Assembly (NCBI GenBank): GCA_902775105.1
Contig: CACYLC010000009.1
Span: 1-43,698, forward strand
Source: Oscillospiraceae bacterium
GTDB lineage: Bacteria; Bacillota; Clostridia; Oscillospirales; Oscillospiraceae
DNA: 43,698 bases
Direction: 5' to 3'
Shown piece by piece: positions 7,031 to 35,758 of the stretch; position 1 is the stretch's first letter; the number at the start of each line of letters is the position of its first letter. Made by a program: the position numbers and the translations under genes. The notes under the pieces were generated by a model. It had not been told where the DNA came from, searched no databases, and worked only from the letters and a program-made list of their open reading frames with translations.

Positions 7031-7310
7031 GGAAACAAAAAAGCCCTTGAAGCATGCTGCCTCAAGGACGTGCGCTCCGCGCCGTGGTACCACCTTGCTT
7101 CGTCTGACTCCTCACGAAATCAGACCTTTGAGAGTTCCGACAAACTCTTACGCTGTTACGGGCGTTCCCGTCGCAGCCTGTACCGGTTCCGGTAGTCAGC
7201 CGCGCAACTCCAAGGCCATCTTCAGCGGGCTCTTCTGTACCTCTTCTCACCGACCGAGGCTCTCTGCGCCATAGCTTCCCGCTTACTCTTCTCTTCATCG
7301 TCTTTAACAT
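7031..7310 (-). promoter_or_regulatory. T-box riboswitch, methionine type, before metNIQ
   Basis: A full T-box leader is readable on the minus strand. Stem I has AGTA (GAAGAGAAGAGTAAGC), the GNTG-like GGTCGGTGAGAAG and the specifier loop GAAGATGGCC, giving codon AUG (complement of 7217-7219). The antiterminator carries the T-box AAGGTGGTACCACGG (complement of 7082-7096). The terminator stem CCTTGAGGCAGCATGCTTCAAGG ends in GCTTTTTTG. The bulge reads UGGU, which pairs with ACCA, fitting the A73 discriminator expected for tRNA-Met. Uncharged tRNA-Met should stabilise the antiterminator and switch the transporter on in methionine starvation. Confidence 0.95.
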
Positions 7311-29098: not shown

Positions 29099-29127
29099 TT
29101 GCATTTTCCCGGCTGCGTGTATATAAT
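29099..29127 (+). promoter_or_regulatory. Promoter of the aroF operon
   Basis: TTGCAT (29099-29104), a 17-bp spacer, and consensus TATAAT (29122-29127). The transcript would start near 29134, leaving a leader of about 255 nt before aroF. Confidence 0.8.
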
Positions 29128-29158
29128 GGCATATAGAATTCATTGTTTGAGGTGCCCT

Positions 29159-29263
29159 ATGGAACGATCCGCCCTCAAAACTGCATCCTTCTCCAATTTC
29201 TGCTTTGGCTGGGGCCGATTTACGGCTTACGGCTTTTTTGGCGTGGAAAAAAACGAGAAGTGA
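29159..29263 (+). CDS. Aromatic-rich leader peptide before aroF
   Basis: A 34-codon ORF with ATG 29159 behind GAGGTG (29150-29155). After MERSALKTAS it reads FSNFCFGWGRFTAYGFFGV, then EKNEK and stop TGA 29261-29263. Six Phe, one Trp and one Tyr fall within 18 codons, far above normal. It lies in the leader between a good promoter and a terminator that precedes aroF (first enzyme of aromatic amino-acid synthesis). This is the arrangement of ribosome-mediated attenuation as in pheA and trp leaders of enterobacteria. The peptide itself has no expected function beyond sensing Phe (and possibly Trp/Tyr) tRNA charging. Confidence 0.75.
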   Translation: MERSALKTASFSNFCFGWGRFTAYGFFGVEKNEK

Positions 29264-29266
29264 TGA

Positions 29267-29364
29267 AATGAATGGGTCAGCCCCGGAACAGGGGCAGCAG
29301 GCAAATCGCGTCAGCGCAAAGCTCATTGATTGCATCCGGTGCATTCAGTGGGCTGTTATTTTTT
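29267..29364 (+). promoter_or_regulatory. Transcription attenuator of the aroF operon
   Basis: Terminator: AGCTCATTGATTGCA (29320-29334) pairs with TGCATTCAGTGGGCT (29340-29354), 14 of 15 positions including two G-U, loop TCCGG, followed by GTTATTTTTT. Antiterminator: AATGAATGGGT (29267-29277) can pair 10 of 11 with 29321-29331, the left arm of the terminator. It begins three bases after the leader stop codon, so a ribosome that reaches the stop would cover it and permit termination, while one stalled on aromatic codons would leave it free. A small hairpin GCCCC/GGGGC (29280-29295) lies between. Confidence 0.75.
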
Positions 29365-29387
29365 GCAAATTGAAGGAGAGAACTGTC

Positions 29388-30407
29388 ATGGTAGTCATCT
29401 TAAAACCGGGAACCAGCCAGAACGACGTACGGAGAATGACCGCATACTTCGAGGCGAAGAACTTTAAAGTGGGCGTCACCGTTGGCGTAGACTGCACCAT
29501 TTTGGGCTTGGTGGGCGATACCACCGCACTGGATCTTCACAAGCTGCAGCAGTTCGACGTGGTGGAGCGGGTCGCCCGTATCTCCGAGCCGTATAAGAAG
29601 GCCAACCGGAAGTTCCACCCCGACGACACCGTGGCAGACGTCTCCGGCGTCCCGGTGGGCGGCGGCAATTTCACCGTCATGGCAGGCCCCTGCTCCATCG
29701 AGGGACAGGAGCAGATCACCGAGATCGCCAAGGCCGTCCAGTCCTCCGGAGCGGGCATCCTCCGAGGCGGCGCCTTCAAGCCCCGCACCTCTCCCTACTC
29801 CTTCCAGGGCATGGGCATCCCCGGCCTGAATCTCATGCTGGAGGCCAAGGCGGAGACCGGCCTTCCCATCGTCACCGAGCTGGTCAGCCCGAAATACTGC
29901 GAGATCTTCAACGACAAGGTGGATCTGGTGCAGATCGGCGCACGGAATATGCAGAATTTCGAGCTGCTCAAGGAGGCGGGCAAGATGTCGAAGCCCATCC
30001 TCCTCAAGCGGGGTCTCTGCGCCACCATTGAGGAATGGCTGATGTCTGCTGAGTATATTATGAGCGAGGGCAACGAAAACGTGATCCTCTGCGAGCGGGG
30101 CATCCGCACCACCGAGACCTATACCCGCAATACGCTGGACGTCTCCGCCATTCCCGTTGTCAAGCGGATGAGCCATCTGCCGGTCATCGTCGATCCCAGC
30201 CACTCCGGAGGCTACACCTATCTGGTGGAGCCCCTCTCCATGGCCGCCATTGCCGCCGGAGCCGACGGCCTCATCATCGAGGTGCACAACGACCCCGCCC
30301 ACGCCAAATGCGACGGCCAGCAGAGCCTCACCCCGGCACAATTCGACAGCCTGATGAAAAAGGCGGGGAAATTGGTTGACCTCATGGGAAAGAACATTGT
30401 AAAATAG
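29388..30407 (+). CDS. aroF: 3-deoxy-7-phosphoheptulonate synthase (DAHP synthase)
   Basis: First enzyme of the shikimate pathway: phosphoenolpyruvate plus erythrose 4-phosphate gives DAHP. 339 residues. An N-terminal ferredoxin-like regulatory domain (about 1-70, MVVILKPGTSQNDVRRM...) is followed by a type I-beta catalytic barrel: VMAGPCSIEGQEQ, GGAFKPRTSPYSFQG, a metal-site His in DPSHSGG, and the 'GADGLIIEVHNDPAHAKCDG' end. ATG 29388 follows AAGGAG; a frame extending upstream to 29205 crosses the leader and is rejected. The stop codon TAG is the first part of a dispersed repeat. Controlled by the upstream leader-peptide attenuator. Confidence 0.96.
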   Translation: MVVILKPGTSQNDVRRMTAYFEAKNFKVGVTVGVDCTILGLVGDTTALDLHKLQQFDVVERVARISEPYKKANRKFHPDDTVADVSGVPVGGGNFTVMAGPCSIEGQEQITEIAKAVQSSGAGILRGGAFKPRTSPYSFQGMGIPGLNLMLEAKAETGLPIVTELVSPKYCEIFNDKVDLVQIGARNMQNFELLKEAGKMSKPILLKRGLCATIEEWLMSAEYIMSEGNENVILCERGIRTTETYTRNTLDVSAIPVVKRMSHLPVIVDPSHSGGYTYLVEPLSMAAIAAGADGLIIEVHNDPAHAKCDGQQSLTPAQFDSLMKKAGKLVDLMGKNIVK

Positions 30408-30489: not shown

Positions 30490-31551
30490 ATGAAAACGCT
30501 TACCGTCCATCTTCCCGGCAGGGAATATGACATTTTGATTGAAAAGGGCATTCTGCGCCAAACAGGAGTTGAATGCCGCCGCGTCCTCCCAAAGACCACC
30601 CGCATCCTGCTGGTCACGGACTCCAATGTGGCTCCTCTTTACGGTAAACAGGCGGAAGAGAGCCTGACAAATACCGGCTTCACCGTCCGCACCTTCACCA
30701 TCCCCGCCGGCGAGCCCTCCAAATGCGCCGACCAGCTGGTGAACCTCTGGAACGAGGCCATGTCCTTCGGCATCACCCGCACGGACGCCATCGTCGCCCT
30801 GGGCGGCGGCGTAGTGGGCGATCTGGCGGGTTTTGCCGCAGCCACCATTTTGCGGGGCATCCCGTTTATCCAGATCCCCACCACCCTCCTGGCTCAGGTG
30901 GACTCCTCCGTGGGCGGCAAGGTGGCCATTGATTTGGATGCAGGAAAAAACCTCGTCGGCGCTTTCTGGCAGCCAAAGCTGGTGCTCATGGACCCGGACA
31001 CCCTGAACACCCTCCCGGACATCACCTTCTCTGACGGCATGGCTGAGGTCATTAAGTACGGCTGTATCTGGGACGCTGACTTCTTCCGGCTTTTGGAGCA
31101 GTGCGGTAATCGTTCCGGCGTCATGGAGCGGATTGAGGAAGTCCTCTACACCTGCTGTGCCATTAAGGCAAAGGTGGTGGAGCAGGACGAGCGGGACACC
31201 GGCCTGCGCATGATCTTAAACTTCGGCCACACCTTAGGCCACGCCTACGAAAAGGCATACCACTACGAGACCTACACCCACGGGCAGGCGGTCTCCGCCG
31301 GGATGTGCCTGGTGGCAAAGCTGGGAGAGCAGCGGAATCTCACCGTCCCCGGAACGGAAGCCGCCATTCGCCGCCTGACTGCCGCCTACGGACTTCCCAC
31401 CCACATTCCCTGCTCTCTCGAGGACTACCGCTCCGCCGTCGGGCTGGACAAAAAGGGCAGCGGAGATGCCATCACAGTCATTTTCCTGAAACAGTTGGGG
31501 GAGACTTTGCCCCGAAAGATGGACAAGAAGGAGCTGCTGAACCTGCTATGA
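30490..31551 (+). CDS. aroB: 3-dehydroquinate synthase
   Basis: Second shikimate enzyme, converting DAHP to 3-dehydroquinate with NAD and a divalent metal. 353 residues. Conserved stretches: GGGVVGDLAGFAAATILRG (NAD-binding), QIPTTLLAQVDSSVGGKVAID, SDGMAEVIKYGCI and the metal histidines in NFGHTLGHAYEKAYHYETYTHGQAV. The start follows AAGGAG. The stop overlaps aroA by 4 bases (ATGA). Confidence 0.96.
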   Translation: MKTLTVHLPGREYDILIEKGILRQTGVECRRVLPKTTRILLVTDSNVAPLYGKQAEESLTNTGFTVRTFTIPAGEPSKCADQLVNLWNEAMSFGITRTDAIVALGGGVVGDLAGFAAATILRGIPFIQIPTTLLAQVDSSVGGKVAIDLDAGKNLVGAFWQPKLVLMDPDTLNTLPDITFSDGMAEVIKYGCIWDADFFRLLEQCGNRSGVMERIEEVLYTCCAIKAKVVEQDERDTGLRMILNFGHTLGHAYEKAYHYETYTHGQAVSAGMCLVAKLGEQRNLTVPGTEAAIRRLTAAYGLPTHIPCSLEDYRSAVGLDKKGSGDAITVIFLKQLGETLPRKMDKKELLNLL

Positions 31552-32762
31552 AGGTAACGATCACCCCCACAAAGCTCAGCGGCATCATCTGTCCCCCCTC
31601 CTCCAAAAGCCAGAGCCACCGGCTCATCATCGCCGCCGCGCTGGCTGAGGGGCAGAGCAGGTTACATAACATCTCTCCCAGTCAGGACATCACCGCCACC
31701 CTTCGCTGTATGGAGGCGCTGGGTGCGGCGGCGGAGGGCGAGATCATCTCCGGCGTCCGCTCCATCGGCGGTGAGGCAGACCCCCTCCCCCGTCTGGACT
31801 GCGGCGAATCCGGCTCCACCCTGCGCTTTCTGATTCCCGTGGCGCTTGCCGTGGCGGGGGGCGGCGTCTTTACCGGGCACGGACGGCTTTTAGAGCGTCC
31901 CATGGAGCCGTATGAGAACCTCTTTCGGGAAAAGGGGATTTTCTACGAGGCCACTCCCACGGAAATTACCGTAAAGGGCGCATTAAAACCGGGCAATTAC
32001 CCCCTTCCCGGCAACGTTTCCAGCCAGTTCATTACCGGACTGCTCTATGCCCTGCCCCTTTTGGAGGGAGACTCTGAACTGATTTTGACCACCCCTCTGG
32101 AATCCGCCGCCTACGTGGACATGACGCTGGAGGCATTGGCGCAGTTCGGAGTGGAGATCCAGCCCAGGTCAACCGGTTGGCACATTCCCGGCCATCAGCG
32201 TCCGAGGGGAAGAGAGCTGACCGCCGAGGGAGACTGGTCCCAGGCGGGGTTTTACTACGCCGCCGCCGGTATTGGAAATTCTGTGACGCTCACCGGCATG
32301 AACCCGGACTCCCGTCAGGGGGACAAGATCGTTGAGGACTACGCCGCCCGGCTGAACGGCTCCGGTGAGGTGACGCTGGATGTGAGCCAGTGCCCGGATT
32401 TGGCCCCAGCTCTGGCCGCCCACGCCGCACTCCGGGCGGGACAAACGTGCCATCTGGTGAACGCCGCCCGGCTTCGCATGAAGGAGAGCGACCGCATTGA
32501 CTGCGTGGCAAGCGAATTGAACCGGCTGGGAGCGCAGGTGGAGACCTTTCCTGACAGCATGACGATTTACGGCGTCTCTCAGCTTCACGGCGGCGAGACA
32601 GACGCCCATAATGACCACCGCATCGCCATGATGCTGGCCATCGCCGCCACCAGAGCGACGGGAGCGGTTGTGATCCACGGGGCAGAGAGCGTGAACAAGT
32701 CCTACCCCCGATTCTGGGAGGATTATAAAATGTTGGGCGGGAAATTTTCAATCTCTCCGTAG
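31548..32762 (+). CDS. aroA: 3-phosphoshikimate 1-carboxyvinyltransferase (EPSP synthase)
   Basis: Sixth shikimate enzyme, joining PEP to shikimate 3-phosphate; the target of glyphosate. 404 residues. Motifs: PPSSKSQSHRLIIAAAL (phosphate-binding Lys), LDCGESGSTLRFLIPVAL, RMKESDRIDC and DAHNDHRIAMMLAI. The glyphosate-loop word reads CGESGSTLRF, lacking the usual NAGTA(M/T)R form and so nearer to class II-like or divergent Firmicute enzymes. ATG 31548 overlaps the aroB stop. The stop TAG (32760-32762) is part of a dispersed repeat, so the last residues may have been altered by repeat insertion. Confidence 0.96.
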   Translation: MKVTITPTKLSGIICPPSSKSQSHRLIIAAALAEGQSRLHNISPSQDITATLRCMEALGAAAEGEIISGVRSIGGEADPLPRLDCGESGSTLRFLIPVALAVAGGGVFTGHGRLLERPMEPYENLFREKGIFYEATPTEITVKGALKPGNYPLPGNVSSQFITGLLYALPLLEGDSELILTTPLESAAYVDMTLEALAQFGVEIQPRSTGWHIPGHQRPRGRELTAEGDWSQAGFYYAAAGIGNSVTLTGMNPDSRQGDKIVEDYAARLNGSGEVTLDVSQCPDLAPALAAHAALRAGQTCHLVNAARLRMKESDRIDCVASELNRLGAQVETFPDSMTIYGVSQLHGGETDAHNDHRIAMMLAIAATRATGAVVIHGAESVNKSYPRFWEDYKMLGGKFSISP

Positions 32763-32903: not shown

Positions 32904-33965
32904 ATGAAACATACCATTTTCGGCGAATCCCACGGCCCCGCCATCGGCGTGGTGCTGGAGGGCGTCCCCTCCGGCATCGAACTGGATCTGGAGCAGATCG
33001 CCTTTGAGCTTGCCCGCCGCGCGCCGGGAAAGGACAATCTGTCCACCCCCCGGAAGGAGGCGGATATCCCGGAGATCGTCTCCGGCCTCTTTGAGGGGCA
33101 CACCACAGGCACCCCCCTCTGCGCGATCATCCGCAATACCGATACCCGGAGCCGGGATTATGCCAAGACAAAAGACCTTGCCCGCCCCGGCCACGCTGAC
33201 TATACCGGCTTTATGCGCTATCAGGGCTATAACGATTATCGGGGCGGCGGTCATTTTTCCGGCCGCCTGACAGCGCCGCTGGTCTTTGCCGGGGCGGTGG
33301 CCAAGCAGATCTTAGCCGCCGAGGGCATCACTGTGGGGGCGCATATCCGCTCCATTGCGGGGGTAGAGGATCTCCCCTTCCAAAACGACGAACAGCCCCT
33401 CAGTAAGGGACTGTTCAAGGAGCTGGCGCAGAAATCCTTTCCCGTCCTGTGGGACGAGCGGGGACAGGAGATGCAGACGGCGATTTTGGCGGCAAGAGAG
33501 CAGAAGGACAGCGTGGGGGGCGTGATTGAGTGCGCGGTGCTGGGCGTCCCCGCCGGACTGGGAGAGCCGGACTTCGGCGGTAATGTGGAGGGCATCTTTT
33601 CTCAGCATCTGTTCGCCGTCCCCGGCGTCAAGGCGGTGGGCTTTGGCGACGGCTTCGGCTTTGCGGCTTTGAAGGGCAGTCAGGCAAACGATCTGCTTTA
33701 CATGAGAAACGGCGAGGTCACGTCGGATACGAACCACTCCGGCGGCGTCAACGGCGGCATTTCAAACGGCCTGCCCATTTTGTTTGAAGCTGCCCTCCGT
33801 CCCACTGCCAGCATCGCCCAGAGCCAAAAGACCGTGAATCTGGACAGCTGGACGAATGACGAGATCACCATTCAGGGCAGACACGACCCCTGCATCGTCC
33901 ACCGTGCCGTCCCCGTCATCGAGGCGGCGGCGGCGCTGGCCACGTGCGAATTGCTGGGGATTTAA
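32904..33965 (+). CDS. aroC: Chorismate synthase
   Basis: The last shikimate enzyme, making chorismate from EPSP with reduced FMN. 353 residues. Signatures: FGESHGPAIGVVLEG at the N-terminus, DYRGGGHFSGRLTAPLVFAGA (FMN site), GVNGGISNGLPI and the C-terminal QGRHDPCIVHRAVPVIEAAAAL. The start follows AGGAGG. 141 bp downstream of aroA, with a dispersed repeat between; probably the same transcript. Confidence 0.96.
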   Translation: MKHTIFGESHGPAIGVVLEGVPSGIELDLEQIAFELARRAPGKDNLSTPRKEADIPEIVSGLFEGHTTGTPLCAIIRNTDTRSRDYAKTKDLARPGHADYTGFMRYQGYNDYRGGGHFSGRLTAPLVFAGAVAKQILAAEGITVGAHIRSIAGVEDLPFQNDEQPLSKGLFKELAQKSFPVLWDERGQEMQTAILAAREQKDSVGGVIECAVLGVPAGLGEPDFGGNVEGIFSQHLFAVPGVKAVGFGDGFGFAALKGSQANDLLYMRNGEVTSDTNHSGGVNGGISNGLPILFEAALRPTASIAQSQKTVNLDSWTNDEITIQGRHDPCIVHRAVPVIEAAAALATCELLGI

Positions 33966-34073: not shown

Positions 34074-35240
34074 ATGCAAGACATCAAATACCTCCGCGGT
34101 CAGATCGACATCATTGACAAGCAGATCGTGGGCCTCTTCCAGCAGCGGATGGAGGTCTCCCAAAACGTGGCCCGATATAAGATCGCAAATCACATCCCCG
34201 TCTTAGACCCCCAGCGGGAGCGGGAGGTTTTAGAGGCCAAGGCCGCCATGGTGGAGACGCCGGAGCAAAAGGCGGACATCGCCAAGCTCTACGAGACCAT
34301 TATGTCCATGAGCCGGGCCTGCCAGCGCCGGGTGATGGACGATCAGGAGCCGGAGCCGGAGGGCTTTTTCCGGCAGTACAACGAGGTGTACGCCCCCGTC
34401 GCTCACCCCAGAGTAGTCTATCAGGGCATGCCCGGCGCTTATAGCGAGGAGGCGGCAGTGGATTTCTTTGGCCGGTCGGTACGCAGCCGTGGACTGGCTC
34501 GATTTGAGGACGCCTTTGAGGCACTGGCAAACGGCGAGGCGGACTACGCCGTCCTGCCCATTGAAAACTCCACCACCGGAGCGATCCGGCAGGTACATGA
34601 TCTGCTGGGTCAGTACGACTTCTTTATGGTGGGTGAGACGACGGTAAAGGTGGAGCACTGCCTCATGGCGCTCCCCGGCGCTACGCTGGAGGGCATCACC
34701 CACGTCTATTCCCATGAGCAGGGTCTCTTCCAGTCCGACCGCTTTTTGGATCAGCATCCCGACTGGGTGCGGGTGCCGCTTTTGGATACGGCGGGCAGCG
34801 CCAAATATGTCAGCGAGAGCGGCGACAAGACCAAGGCTGCCATCTGTTCCCGTCGTGCGGCGGAGGTGTACGGGCTGAACATTTTGGCAGAGCACGTCAA
34901 CCACAACGGGGAGAACTATACCCGTTTTGCCGTCATCCGCCCCAAGCCGGAGCTGCGGCCGGGGAGCGATAAAATTACCGCTGTATTCACTCTGCCCCAC
35001 CAGAGCGGCTCACTCCACGAGATTTTGACCATCTTCGCCGTCAACGGCCTGAACCTGGTCAAGCTGGAGTCCCGCCCTCTCCCCGACCGGAAGTGGGAGT
35101 ATCAGTTCTATGTGGAATTTACCGGCAACCTCCACGCCCCCGGCATGGACGCCGTATTGCTGGAGCTGGATCAGTCCACGGCCCATTTCCGCATCGTCGG
35201 CAATTATGTGGCCAATCTGGGTGCGGGGGACGCGGTATGA
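34074..35240 (+). CDS. pheA: Bifunctional chorismate mutase / prephenate dehydratase (P-protein)
   Basis: The enzyme committed to phenylalanine: chorismate to prephenate to phenylpyruvate. 388 residues in three domains. An AroQ-type chorismate mutase (about 1-90: LRGQIDIIDKQIVGLFQQRMEVSQNVARYK) is followed by prephenate dehydratase (about 105-290: VVYQGMPGAYSEEAA, VLPIENSTTGAI). The ACT domain (about 300-385) has the feedback-site ESRP in LVKLESRPLPDRKWEYQFYVE, which binds phenylalanine in the family. The start at 34074 follows GGGGGA; an upstream extension is not supported. The stop overlaps aroK (ATGA). No tyrA or trp genes are present here, so the cluster appears oriented to phenylalanine. 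Confidence 0.96.
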   Translation: MQDIKYLRGQIDIIDKQIVGLFQQRMEVSQNVARYKIANHIPVLDPQREREVLEAKAAMVETPEQKADIAKLYETIMSMSRACQRRVMDDQEPEPEGFFRQYNEVYAPVAHPRVVYQGMPGAYSEEAAVDFFGRSVRSRGLARFEDAFEALANGEADYAVLPIENSTTGAIRQVHDLLGQYDFFMVGETTVKVEHCLMALPGATLEGITHVYSHEQGLFQSDRFLDQHPDWVRVPLLDTAGSAKYVSESGDKTKAAICSRRAAEVYGLNILAEHVNHNGENYTRFAVIRPKPELRPGSDKITAVFTLPHQSGSLHEILTIFAVNGLNLVKLESRPLPDRKWEYQFYVEFTGNLHAPGMDAVLLELDQSTAHFRIVGNYVANLGAGDAV

Positions 35241-35758
35241 AAAATATCGTCATCATCGGCATGATGGGCTGCGGAAAGAGCACCTGCGGCCGCTATCTGA
35301 GTGAGTTTACCGGTCTGCCTCTGGTGGACACCGACCAGCTCATTACCGAGCGGACAGGCAAGACCCCCAGCGAGATTTTTGCCCAGCAGGGAGAGCAGTA
35401 CTTCCGTGATCTGGAGACAGACCTCTGCCGGGAGCTGTCAGAGCAGTCCGGCCTCATCATCGCCACCGGCGGCGGTCTGCCCCTGCGGGAGGAAAACCGC
35501 CGGCTTTTAAGGGAAAACGGCGTCGTCGTCTTTCTCAGCCGCCCGGCGGAGGACATTTTCAACCCGGAAAAGCTGAAGGATCGCCCTCTGGCACAGATGG
35601 GGAAAGAGAACTTTTTACGTCGCTTTGAGGAGCGTGTTCCCATCTACCGGGAGATGGCCCACTATGAGGTGGAGAGCGCCCCGGTCAAGGCAGAGACGGC
35701 AAAAAAGGTGCTGGCCGTGTGGGAGAAGGAGACAGGAGTCTTGAGTTTAGAGTCATAG
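35237..35758 (+). CDS. aroK: Shikimate kinase
   Basis: The fifth shikimate enzyme, phosphorylating shikimate with ATP. 173 residues, normal length. Walker A GMMGCGKST (8-16), shikimate-binding DTD and ATGGGLPL, and lid arginines in KDRPLAQMG. ATG 35237 overlaps the pheA stop, so the two are coupled. The C-terminal end (GVLSLES) and its TAG stop merge with a dispersed repeat that begins TAGAGTTCAGAG, so the native C-terminus may have been modified. Confidence 0.95.
   Translation: MKNIVIIGMMGCGKSTCGRYLSEFTGLPLVDTDQLITERTGKTPSEIFAQQGEQYFRDLETDLCRELSEQSGLIIATGGGLPLREENRRLLRENGVVVFLSRPAEDIFNPEKLKDRPLAQMGKENFLRRFEERVPIYREMAHYEVESAPVKAETAKKVLAVWEKETGVLSLES

Follow-up and report, generated by a model that had tools for sequence, protein, structure and literature searches.

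Organization of the aroF operon and its leader

The window, that is, the whole 43,698-nt stretch of DNA analysed here, is contig CACYLC010000009.1 of assembly GCA_902775105.1 (Oscillospiraceae bacterium), positions 1 to 43,698. Its + strand carries the gene order aroF-aroB-aroA-aroC-pheA-aroK, with a leader region in front of aroF. The features are listed below.

29099..29127, + strand: promoter; −35 TTGCAT at 29099-29104, 17 nt spacer, −10 TATAAT at 29122-29127
29149..29154, + strand: Shine-Dalgarno sequence of the leader ORF, GAGGTG (GAGG at 29149-29152)
29159..29263, + strand: leader ORF, 34 codons plus TGA
29165..29194, + strand: segment 1 (B), leader codons 3-12; predicted partner of segment 2
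29207..29239, + strand: hairpin C in the leader ORF (29207-29234), then UUUUUU at 29234-29239 (Phe26-Phe27 codons); pause- or terminator-like
29259..29278, + strand: segment 2 (D), spanning the leader stop; predicted partner of segment 1 or, as antiterminator, of segment 3
29280..29295, + strand: small hairpin GCCCC-GGAACA-GGGGC between segments 2 and 3, read from the sequence
29320..29364, + strand: intrinsic terminator; hairpin 29320-29354 (−19.1 kcal/mol), then the tail GTTATTTTTT to 29364
29320..29337, + strand: segment 3 (E), left arm and loop side of the terminator
29338..29354, + strand: segment 4 (F), right arm of the terminator
29388..30407, + strand: aroF, DAHP synthase of the AroF type with a ferredoxin-like N-terminal domain
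30490..31551, + strand: aroB, 3-dehydroquinate synthase
31548..32762, + strand: aroA, EPSP synthase
32904..33965, + strand: aroC, chorismate synthase
34074..35240, + strand: pheA, chorismate mutase-prephenate dehydratase-ACT
35237..35758, + strand: aroK, shikimate kinase

The translation of the leader ORF is MERSALKTASFSNFCFGWGRFTAYGFFGVEKNEK. As described in the first-pass annotation, the ORF has 34 codons and a Shine-Dalgarno sequence, and between codons 11 and 27 it contains six Phe (codons 11, 14, 16, 21, 26 and 27), one Trp (codon 18) and one Tyr (codon 24). The pheA gene that the annotation had noted further down the cluster belongs to the same operon as aroF, and the terminator that it had proposed is present. 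Its consensus-type promoter was also found in place, with a −35 element that matches TTGACA at only 3/6 positions. A TTG[ACT][ACT]N-16/17-TATAAT-like site of this type, mostly TTGCAT or TTGCAA, is located 29-53 nt 5′ of the leader start in 60/67 relatives. A generic promoter scan and a strict terminator scan listed neither of these two elements.

Terminator and predicted mutually exclusive pairings

The complementarity of 29267-29277 to the left arm of the terminator, which had been claimed for the window, is real and longer than claimed: 29259-29278 is predicted to pair with the left arm and loop at 29320-29338 (2:3 pairing, −14.3 kcal/mol). A further pairing, missed in the first pass, joins 29165-29194 with 29255-29279 (1:2 pairing, −19.9 kcal/mol). 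A terminator was found in each of the 57 leaders scanned; that of L052 was set by hand, the automatic pick being another hairpin. The best partner of segment 3 was segment 2 in 47/57 leaders and hairpin-C sequence in 10/57. When the search was limited to RNA 3′ of hairpin C, every leader had a segment 2 partner, at −6.7 to −23.4 kcal/mol, and these partners show plain compensatory variants, for example in L055, L085, L130, L137 and L142. In 11/69 leaders segment 2 does not extend past the stop codon.

A partner-swap test was carried out on 64 of a set of 70 leaders, of which 57 were found automatically and 13 were added by hand (L092, with a leader seen by eye, is not in the set). The six omitted were L095, L097, L098 and L146, with no clear segment 2, L123, with no terminator record, and L018, with its upstream region cut. 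Mean energies of real and swapped partners were −16.8 and −13.9 kcal/mol for the 2:3 pairing, −18.0 and −15.9 kcal/mol for 1:2, −16.5 and −13.6 kcal/mol for hairpin C, and −23.6 and −15.9 kcal/mol for the terminator, with 0/2000 permutations as good in each case. On 13 dissimilar representatives (12 for hairpin C), the permutations as good numbered 0, 2, 0 and 0 per 2000 for the same four pairings. Because segment 2 had been picked by its fit to its own segment 3, the test of 2:3 was favoured; the tests of 1:2 and hairpin C carry no such bias.

Three other pairings were rejected by the same test. A hairpin masking the leader Shine-Dalgarno sequence (GTGAGG with CCTCAC) was attractive by eye, but 1829/2000 permutations were as good or better. 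Pairing of the in-ORF hairpin arm C5 with segment 2 was equalled by 422/2000 permutations. Pairing of arm C3 with segment 3 was equalled by 19/2000 on all sequences but by 1111/2000 on the representatives.

Covariation was scored on alignment A2, with the pair structure taken from one of its members. A2 holds 43 of the 63 leaders whose coordinates were available; the 20 that diverged most had been removed. For 2:3, 85.7% of the cells are paired and 22 further pair types occur (0/500 shuffles); two-sided change is seen at 6 pairs, and 40/500 shuffles reach as many, a point against the proposed attenuator. For 1:2, 82.6% are paired, with 17 two-sided cells (0/500 shuffles; shuffled mean 3.4). 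Hairpin C has 93.8% paired and 4 two-sided cells (1/500 shuffles), and the terminator 97.2% paired and 54 two-sided cells (0/500 shuffles). When the 3′ partner was slid, the cells paired and the covariation score always fell, the true register being highest, whereas two-sided cells were more numerous in some slid registers (2:3 at +1, 20 vs 12; hairpin C at −1, 8 vs 4).

The leader, the terminator core and the pairings recur in the relatives far beyond chance. Conservation of the leader ORF and of the alternative pairings in close relatives had been suggested as a check on the attenuator, and both are conserved. As predicted structures, four pairings are supported by these comparisons: 1:2, 2:3, 3:4 and the in-ORF hairpin.

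In-ORF hairpin, codon choice and peptide conservation

Hairpin C, which had gone unnoticed in the first-pass annotation, is formed by codons 17-25. Its stability together with the following U residues is better than that of synonymous recodings (mean z −1.6; 29/63 at or below 0.05), and in two relatives, L182 and L224, it was the automatic terminator pick. It may pause transcription, giving the ribosome time to catch up, or act as an early terminator that is opened by a translating ribosome. The CGAUUU of its loop (window 29216-29221) is invariant, 43/43 in A2, though CGA accounts for just 18/659 Arg codons downstream.

Third positions of the leader codons are mostly frozen: Leu6 is CTC in 39/39, Thr7 ACA in 35/35, Ala9 GCA in 35/36, Gly17 GGC in 36/36, Arg20 CGA in 43/43, Phe21 TTT in 43/43 and Gly25 GGC in 42/42. 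Thr8 is split (ACT 28 and ACC 12 of 41), and Gly30, outside segment 1 and hairpin C, is free in its codon (10/24). Over 22 leader columns the share of the top codon is 0.89; in the downstream gene the corresponding share for these amino acids is 0.74. Of the aromatic codons at leader column 13 and beyond, 196/211 are UUU or UAU, vs 189/662 in the downstream genes. RNA pairing thus accounts for much of the conservation of the peptide.

The peptide is conserved beyond its aromatic residues (T.AS, GWARF, G.G), which would fit an arrest of the TnaC kind, in which a conserved nascent peptide stalls the ribosome on free phenylalanine or another ligand. In TnaC the ribosome is stalled by the peptide in response to tryptophan. 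We consider arrest of this kind very unlikely here. The conserved residues coincide with segment 1 and hairpin C, where most third codon positions are frozen, pointing to a strong constraint on the RNA, beside which the peptide may still play a part; residues vary where the pairing is kept, for example Phe11 to Arg; and stalling induced by a ligand would be wrong in sign for a biosynthetic operon unless it were wired differently.

Distribution in the Oscillospiraceae

A search with the leader peptide gave matches in 42/200 genomes of the family (E up to 10, weak matches counted), and a 17-row profile gave matches in 78/400 (E up to 0.1, weak matches counted). Among 30 loci from the peptide search, all 16 with E <0.001 and two weaker ones lay directly 5′ of an aroF orthologue, and the other 12 did not. 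Many loci had been fetched because a leader was already found in them, so that the fair sample is the one of 46 genes obtained through aroF. In 200 family genomes, aroF genes of the A type (orthologues of the window gene, 66-100% identity) were found in 47 genomes; those of the B type showed 55-65% identity among the matches listed. One of the 47 A genes stands at a contig edge, leaving 46 assessable, among which G115 is represented by a second contig piece (L133). By our own reading, a leader ORF and a terminator stand directly before 42 of the 46; the leader is absent from L099, L107, L148 and L149. Three of the 42 leaders, from one genus, are divergent and lack the usual terminator core. 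Upstream of aroF in L095, L097 and L098, of one genus, we observed a divergent NRFYGYFTCAFWGAG-like leader whose terminator is a different one and for which no antiterminator partner was clear.

A second set, overlapping the first, consists of 80 named loci, of which 78 had enough upstream sequence; a CGAUUU-bearing leader ORF was found in 66 of these 78 and a CTCATTG-type terminator core also in 66. The loci with a leader include Flavonifractor plautii ATCC 29863 (L231) and Pseudoflavonifractor capillosus (L238).

Two loci depart from the usual arrangement. In the close relative L175 (L175:1201-1503), whose aroF is 82% identical, a promoter stands directly before aroF with no leader or terminator, and this may be a natural loss of the attenuator. 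In G275 (L138:977-1170), a homologous Phe leader with the in-ORF hairpin and a terminator precedes an aroK-aroE fusion gene, an apparent hop of the leader to another shikimate gene.

Homologous leaders were also sought beyond the family, at order level with A1 in 295 genomes and with the broader profile A3 in 394 (order) and 391 (class) genomes. These samples include family members; the matches that lay outside the family all had E of at least 0.002, about chance level. None of the six aro proteins tested was found around 13 of these outside-family matches.

Phe leaders and Tyr leaders on paralogous operons

The order aroF-aroB-aroA-aroC-pheA was found in 9/9 long loci (about 9-10 kb), eight of which also have aroK; a tenth locus, L264, was too short. 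In the 70 leaders of A-type genes, Phe is the commonest aromatic residue (mean 4.9, vs 1.0 Trp and 1.4 Tyr). Phe outnumbers Tyr in 65/70, and the reverse never occurs.

By an automatic criterion, a short aromatic ORF was found upstream of B-type aroF in 28/34 loci (11/14 in L150-L163 and 17/20 in L279-L298), and two further leaders, cut or damaged, were seen by eye in L158 and L286. A Tyr-Arg-Tyr/Cys/Arg core is present in 24 of these 28 leaders, and a terminator-like hairpin follows in 28/28. Tyr outnumbers Phe in 24/28, with the reverse in 2. In all 20 loci with downstream sequence, tyrA lies downstream of the B-type aroF on the same strand. Thus Phe leaders go with pheA and mostly Tyr leaders with tyrA, and the leader codons match the operon's branch. 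The antiterminators of the Tyr leaders failed the swap test, 297/2000 permutations being as good. The genome of the window has no B-type aroF above threshold; its tyrA stands elsewhere, and no leader was seen in the 420 bases before it.

Two other sequences were noted upstream of aroF genes. A promoter-like and palindrome-like sequence, TTGACTTTA..N..AAGTGyTAAAGT, was seen by eye before B-type aroF in L152, L151, L157, L285, L280 and L286, and may be a regulator binding site. Before the more distant aroF of L251 stands a different Tyr/Phe leader (MNGIQMTTRYVSYQGYYGVGVFVLFS) with a terminator.

Proposed mechanism

The leader of the window has a cluster of Phe codons, codons matched to the pathway, a terminator and, by prediction and covariation, the 2:3 and 1:2 pairings. 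Sequence comparison and folding together make it very probable that the leader is a ribosome-mediated transcription attenuator which reads the charging of Phe-tRNA and controls aroF-aroB-aroA-aroC-pheA-aroK. The observations are the parts and their conservation, the covariation, the biased codon choice, and the agreement of the leader codons with the branch that the operon serves. The conserved leader and pairings, the presence of pheA in the operon and the matching of leader codons to the branch across paralogous operons support the attenuation-type mechanism that the first-pass annotation had put forward.

From these observations we infer ribosome stalling, timing and a response to phenylalanine, as follows. 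Transcription would start near 29135, as judged from the −10 element, and a ribosome would translate the leader. With ample Phe-tRNA, the ribosome at the stop codon would cover segment 2, and segments 3 and 4 would form the terminator. With scarce Phe-tRNA, the ribosome would stall at the Phe codons and leave segment 2 free; at the early Phe codons the stalled ribosome would cover segment 1. The free segment 2 would pair with segment 3 before segment 4 is made, and the polymerase would read through. Without translation, segments 1 and 2 would pair and termination would follow.

Folding was computed with a fixed ribosome footprint; RNA ahead of the ribosome was left free, and RNA behind it was barred from pairing with RNA ahead. 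With the transcript extended up to segment 3, the 2:3 pairing was predicted in 60, 59, 45, 52, 61 and 64 of 65 leaders for ribosomes stalled at F11, F13, F16, W18, F21 and F27 (consensus numbering), respectively. It was predicted in 12/65 with the ribosome at the stop codon, and in 18/65 without a ribosome, where the 1:2 pairing dominates. The proposal that a ribosome reaching the stop hides the antiterminator agrees with the window but does not hold for all leaders: in the 11/69 whose segment 2 extends no further than the stop codon, a moving ribosome, rather than one at the stop, would have to open segment 2. In the full-length transcript the terminator was more stable in 61-65 of 65 leaders at any ribosome position; antitermination must therefore be kinetic, a matter of timing, as it is in trp attenuation.

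The greater stability of the terminator over the antiterminator at equilibrium would also be expected if the leader were translated without regulatory effect and a leaky promoter-proximal terminator set a constant level of expression. Covariation in mutually exclusive pairings and the codon choice are not expected without regulation, and such an arrangement is hardly credible.

The same attenuator could also respond to the charging of all three aromatic tRNAs (Phe, Trp and Tyr), which would fit an operon of the common pathway and is compatible with the reading of Phe. Trp occurs in 60/70 leaders and Tyr in 58/70, and the antiterminator is predicted with the ribosome stalled at Trp18 in most leaders, as given above. 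Against this stand the predominance of Phe among the aromatic residues, the fact that pheA is the sole branch gene found in the operon (of the branch genes, the search in the relatives covered pheA), and the replacement of Trp18 in several relatives. Trp18 lies in hairpin C, so that RNA pairing may fix it. We regard general aromatic sensing as rather unlikely.

Phe-tRNA charging, then, is the signal that we favour. More tentatively, with somewhat less than even confidence, we suggest that members of the family have a matched pair of leader-peptide attenuators on two DAHP synthase operons, with a Phe leader in front of aroF-BAC-pheA and a Tyr leader in front of aroF-tyrA, and that the Phe leader works through two checkpoints. 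The in-ORF hairpin, whose U-tract consists of Phe-Phe or Tyr-Phe codons, would pause or end transcription without a ribosome, and the downstream terminator would then read Phe-tRNA charging.

T-box, TRAP and Rfam searches

None of 4227 Rfam families matched the locus at the gathering threshold; two weak unrelated matches were obtained, the better with E 0.49. No match was found on 18 B-type or leaderless loci either. A T-box at the locus was rejected, as there was no covariance-model match and no GGUGGNACC antiterminator bulge. TRAP control was rejected as well: no match to the TRAP family was found in the genome, which is about 90% complete, and the locus has just five scattered (G/U)AG triplets.

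These results bear on a further explanation, that a T-box, TRAP or another RNA or protein sensor acts on the conserved terminator and the ORF is incidental. The terminator core CTCATTG is unusually conserved, and T-boxes do exist in the genome. The core is predicted to pair with segment 2 as well as segment 4, however, which can account for its conservation, and the leader codons change from Phe to Tyr according to the branch of the operon. Together with the absence of Rfam and TRAP matches, this makes such a sensor extremely unlikely, and a Phe-reading attenuator remains the preferred interpretation.

There were 15 T-box matches in the genome of the window, 8 of them over the cut-off. Downstream of these 8 lie valS, leuA, glyS, tyrS, a TrpX-like transporter gene, trpE, an acetolactate synthase gene and pheS. 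A T-box at window 7061-7307 (− strand; 88.3 bits, under the gathering score of 93) lies upstream of metN-metI-metQ-like genes (a methionine transporter operon).

Comparison with known systems

The trp and pheA leader attenuators are known from enterobacteria, and the kind is best documented in Proteobacteria. In Firmicutes, T-boxes are better known than leader-peptide attenuation. T-box leaders (RF00230) share with the Oscillospiraceae leader the sensing of tRNA charging, and they occur in the same genome before pheS, tyrS and trpE; in a T-box, however, the tRNA binds the RNA directly and there is no leader ORF.

Leader-peptide attenuation in Firmicutes is described for the His leader peptides of hisS*/hisZ in bacilli (PMC2965389) and for the ilvD leader of Staphylococcus aureus (PMC5794164); these concern other amino acids and other operons than the Phe leader described here. 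The uORFC-13-1 motif belongs to aroF of Acholeplasma and is reported from there and from environmental sequence only (PMC8632094). As described, it shares a uORF with Phe codon(s) and an intrinsic terminator 5′ of aroF, and it differs in that its description gives one or more Phe and an additional stem (PMC8632094). In a literature search, with most subscription papers outside its scope, no title or abstract reported the Oscillospiraceae Phe leader element.

With the enterobacterial trp and pheA leaders, the Oscillospiraceae leader shares an ORF rich in the regulated residue, the 1:2, 2:3 and 3:4 pairings and a terminator before the first gene. It differs in belonging to another phylum and another operon and in having no Rfam match; its segment 1 starts from about codon 3, and an additional hairpin with a U-run lies within the ORF. 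The pairing of RNA within the ORF would explain much of the strong conservation of a throw-away peptide. The paralogous operons, with their Phe and Tyr leaders, amount to a natural codon swap. Attenuation of the trp/pheA type would be extended here to central aromatic biosynthesis in the Oscillospiraceae, in a genome that also bears T-boxes.
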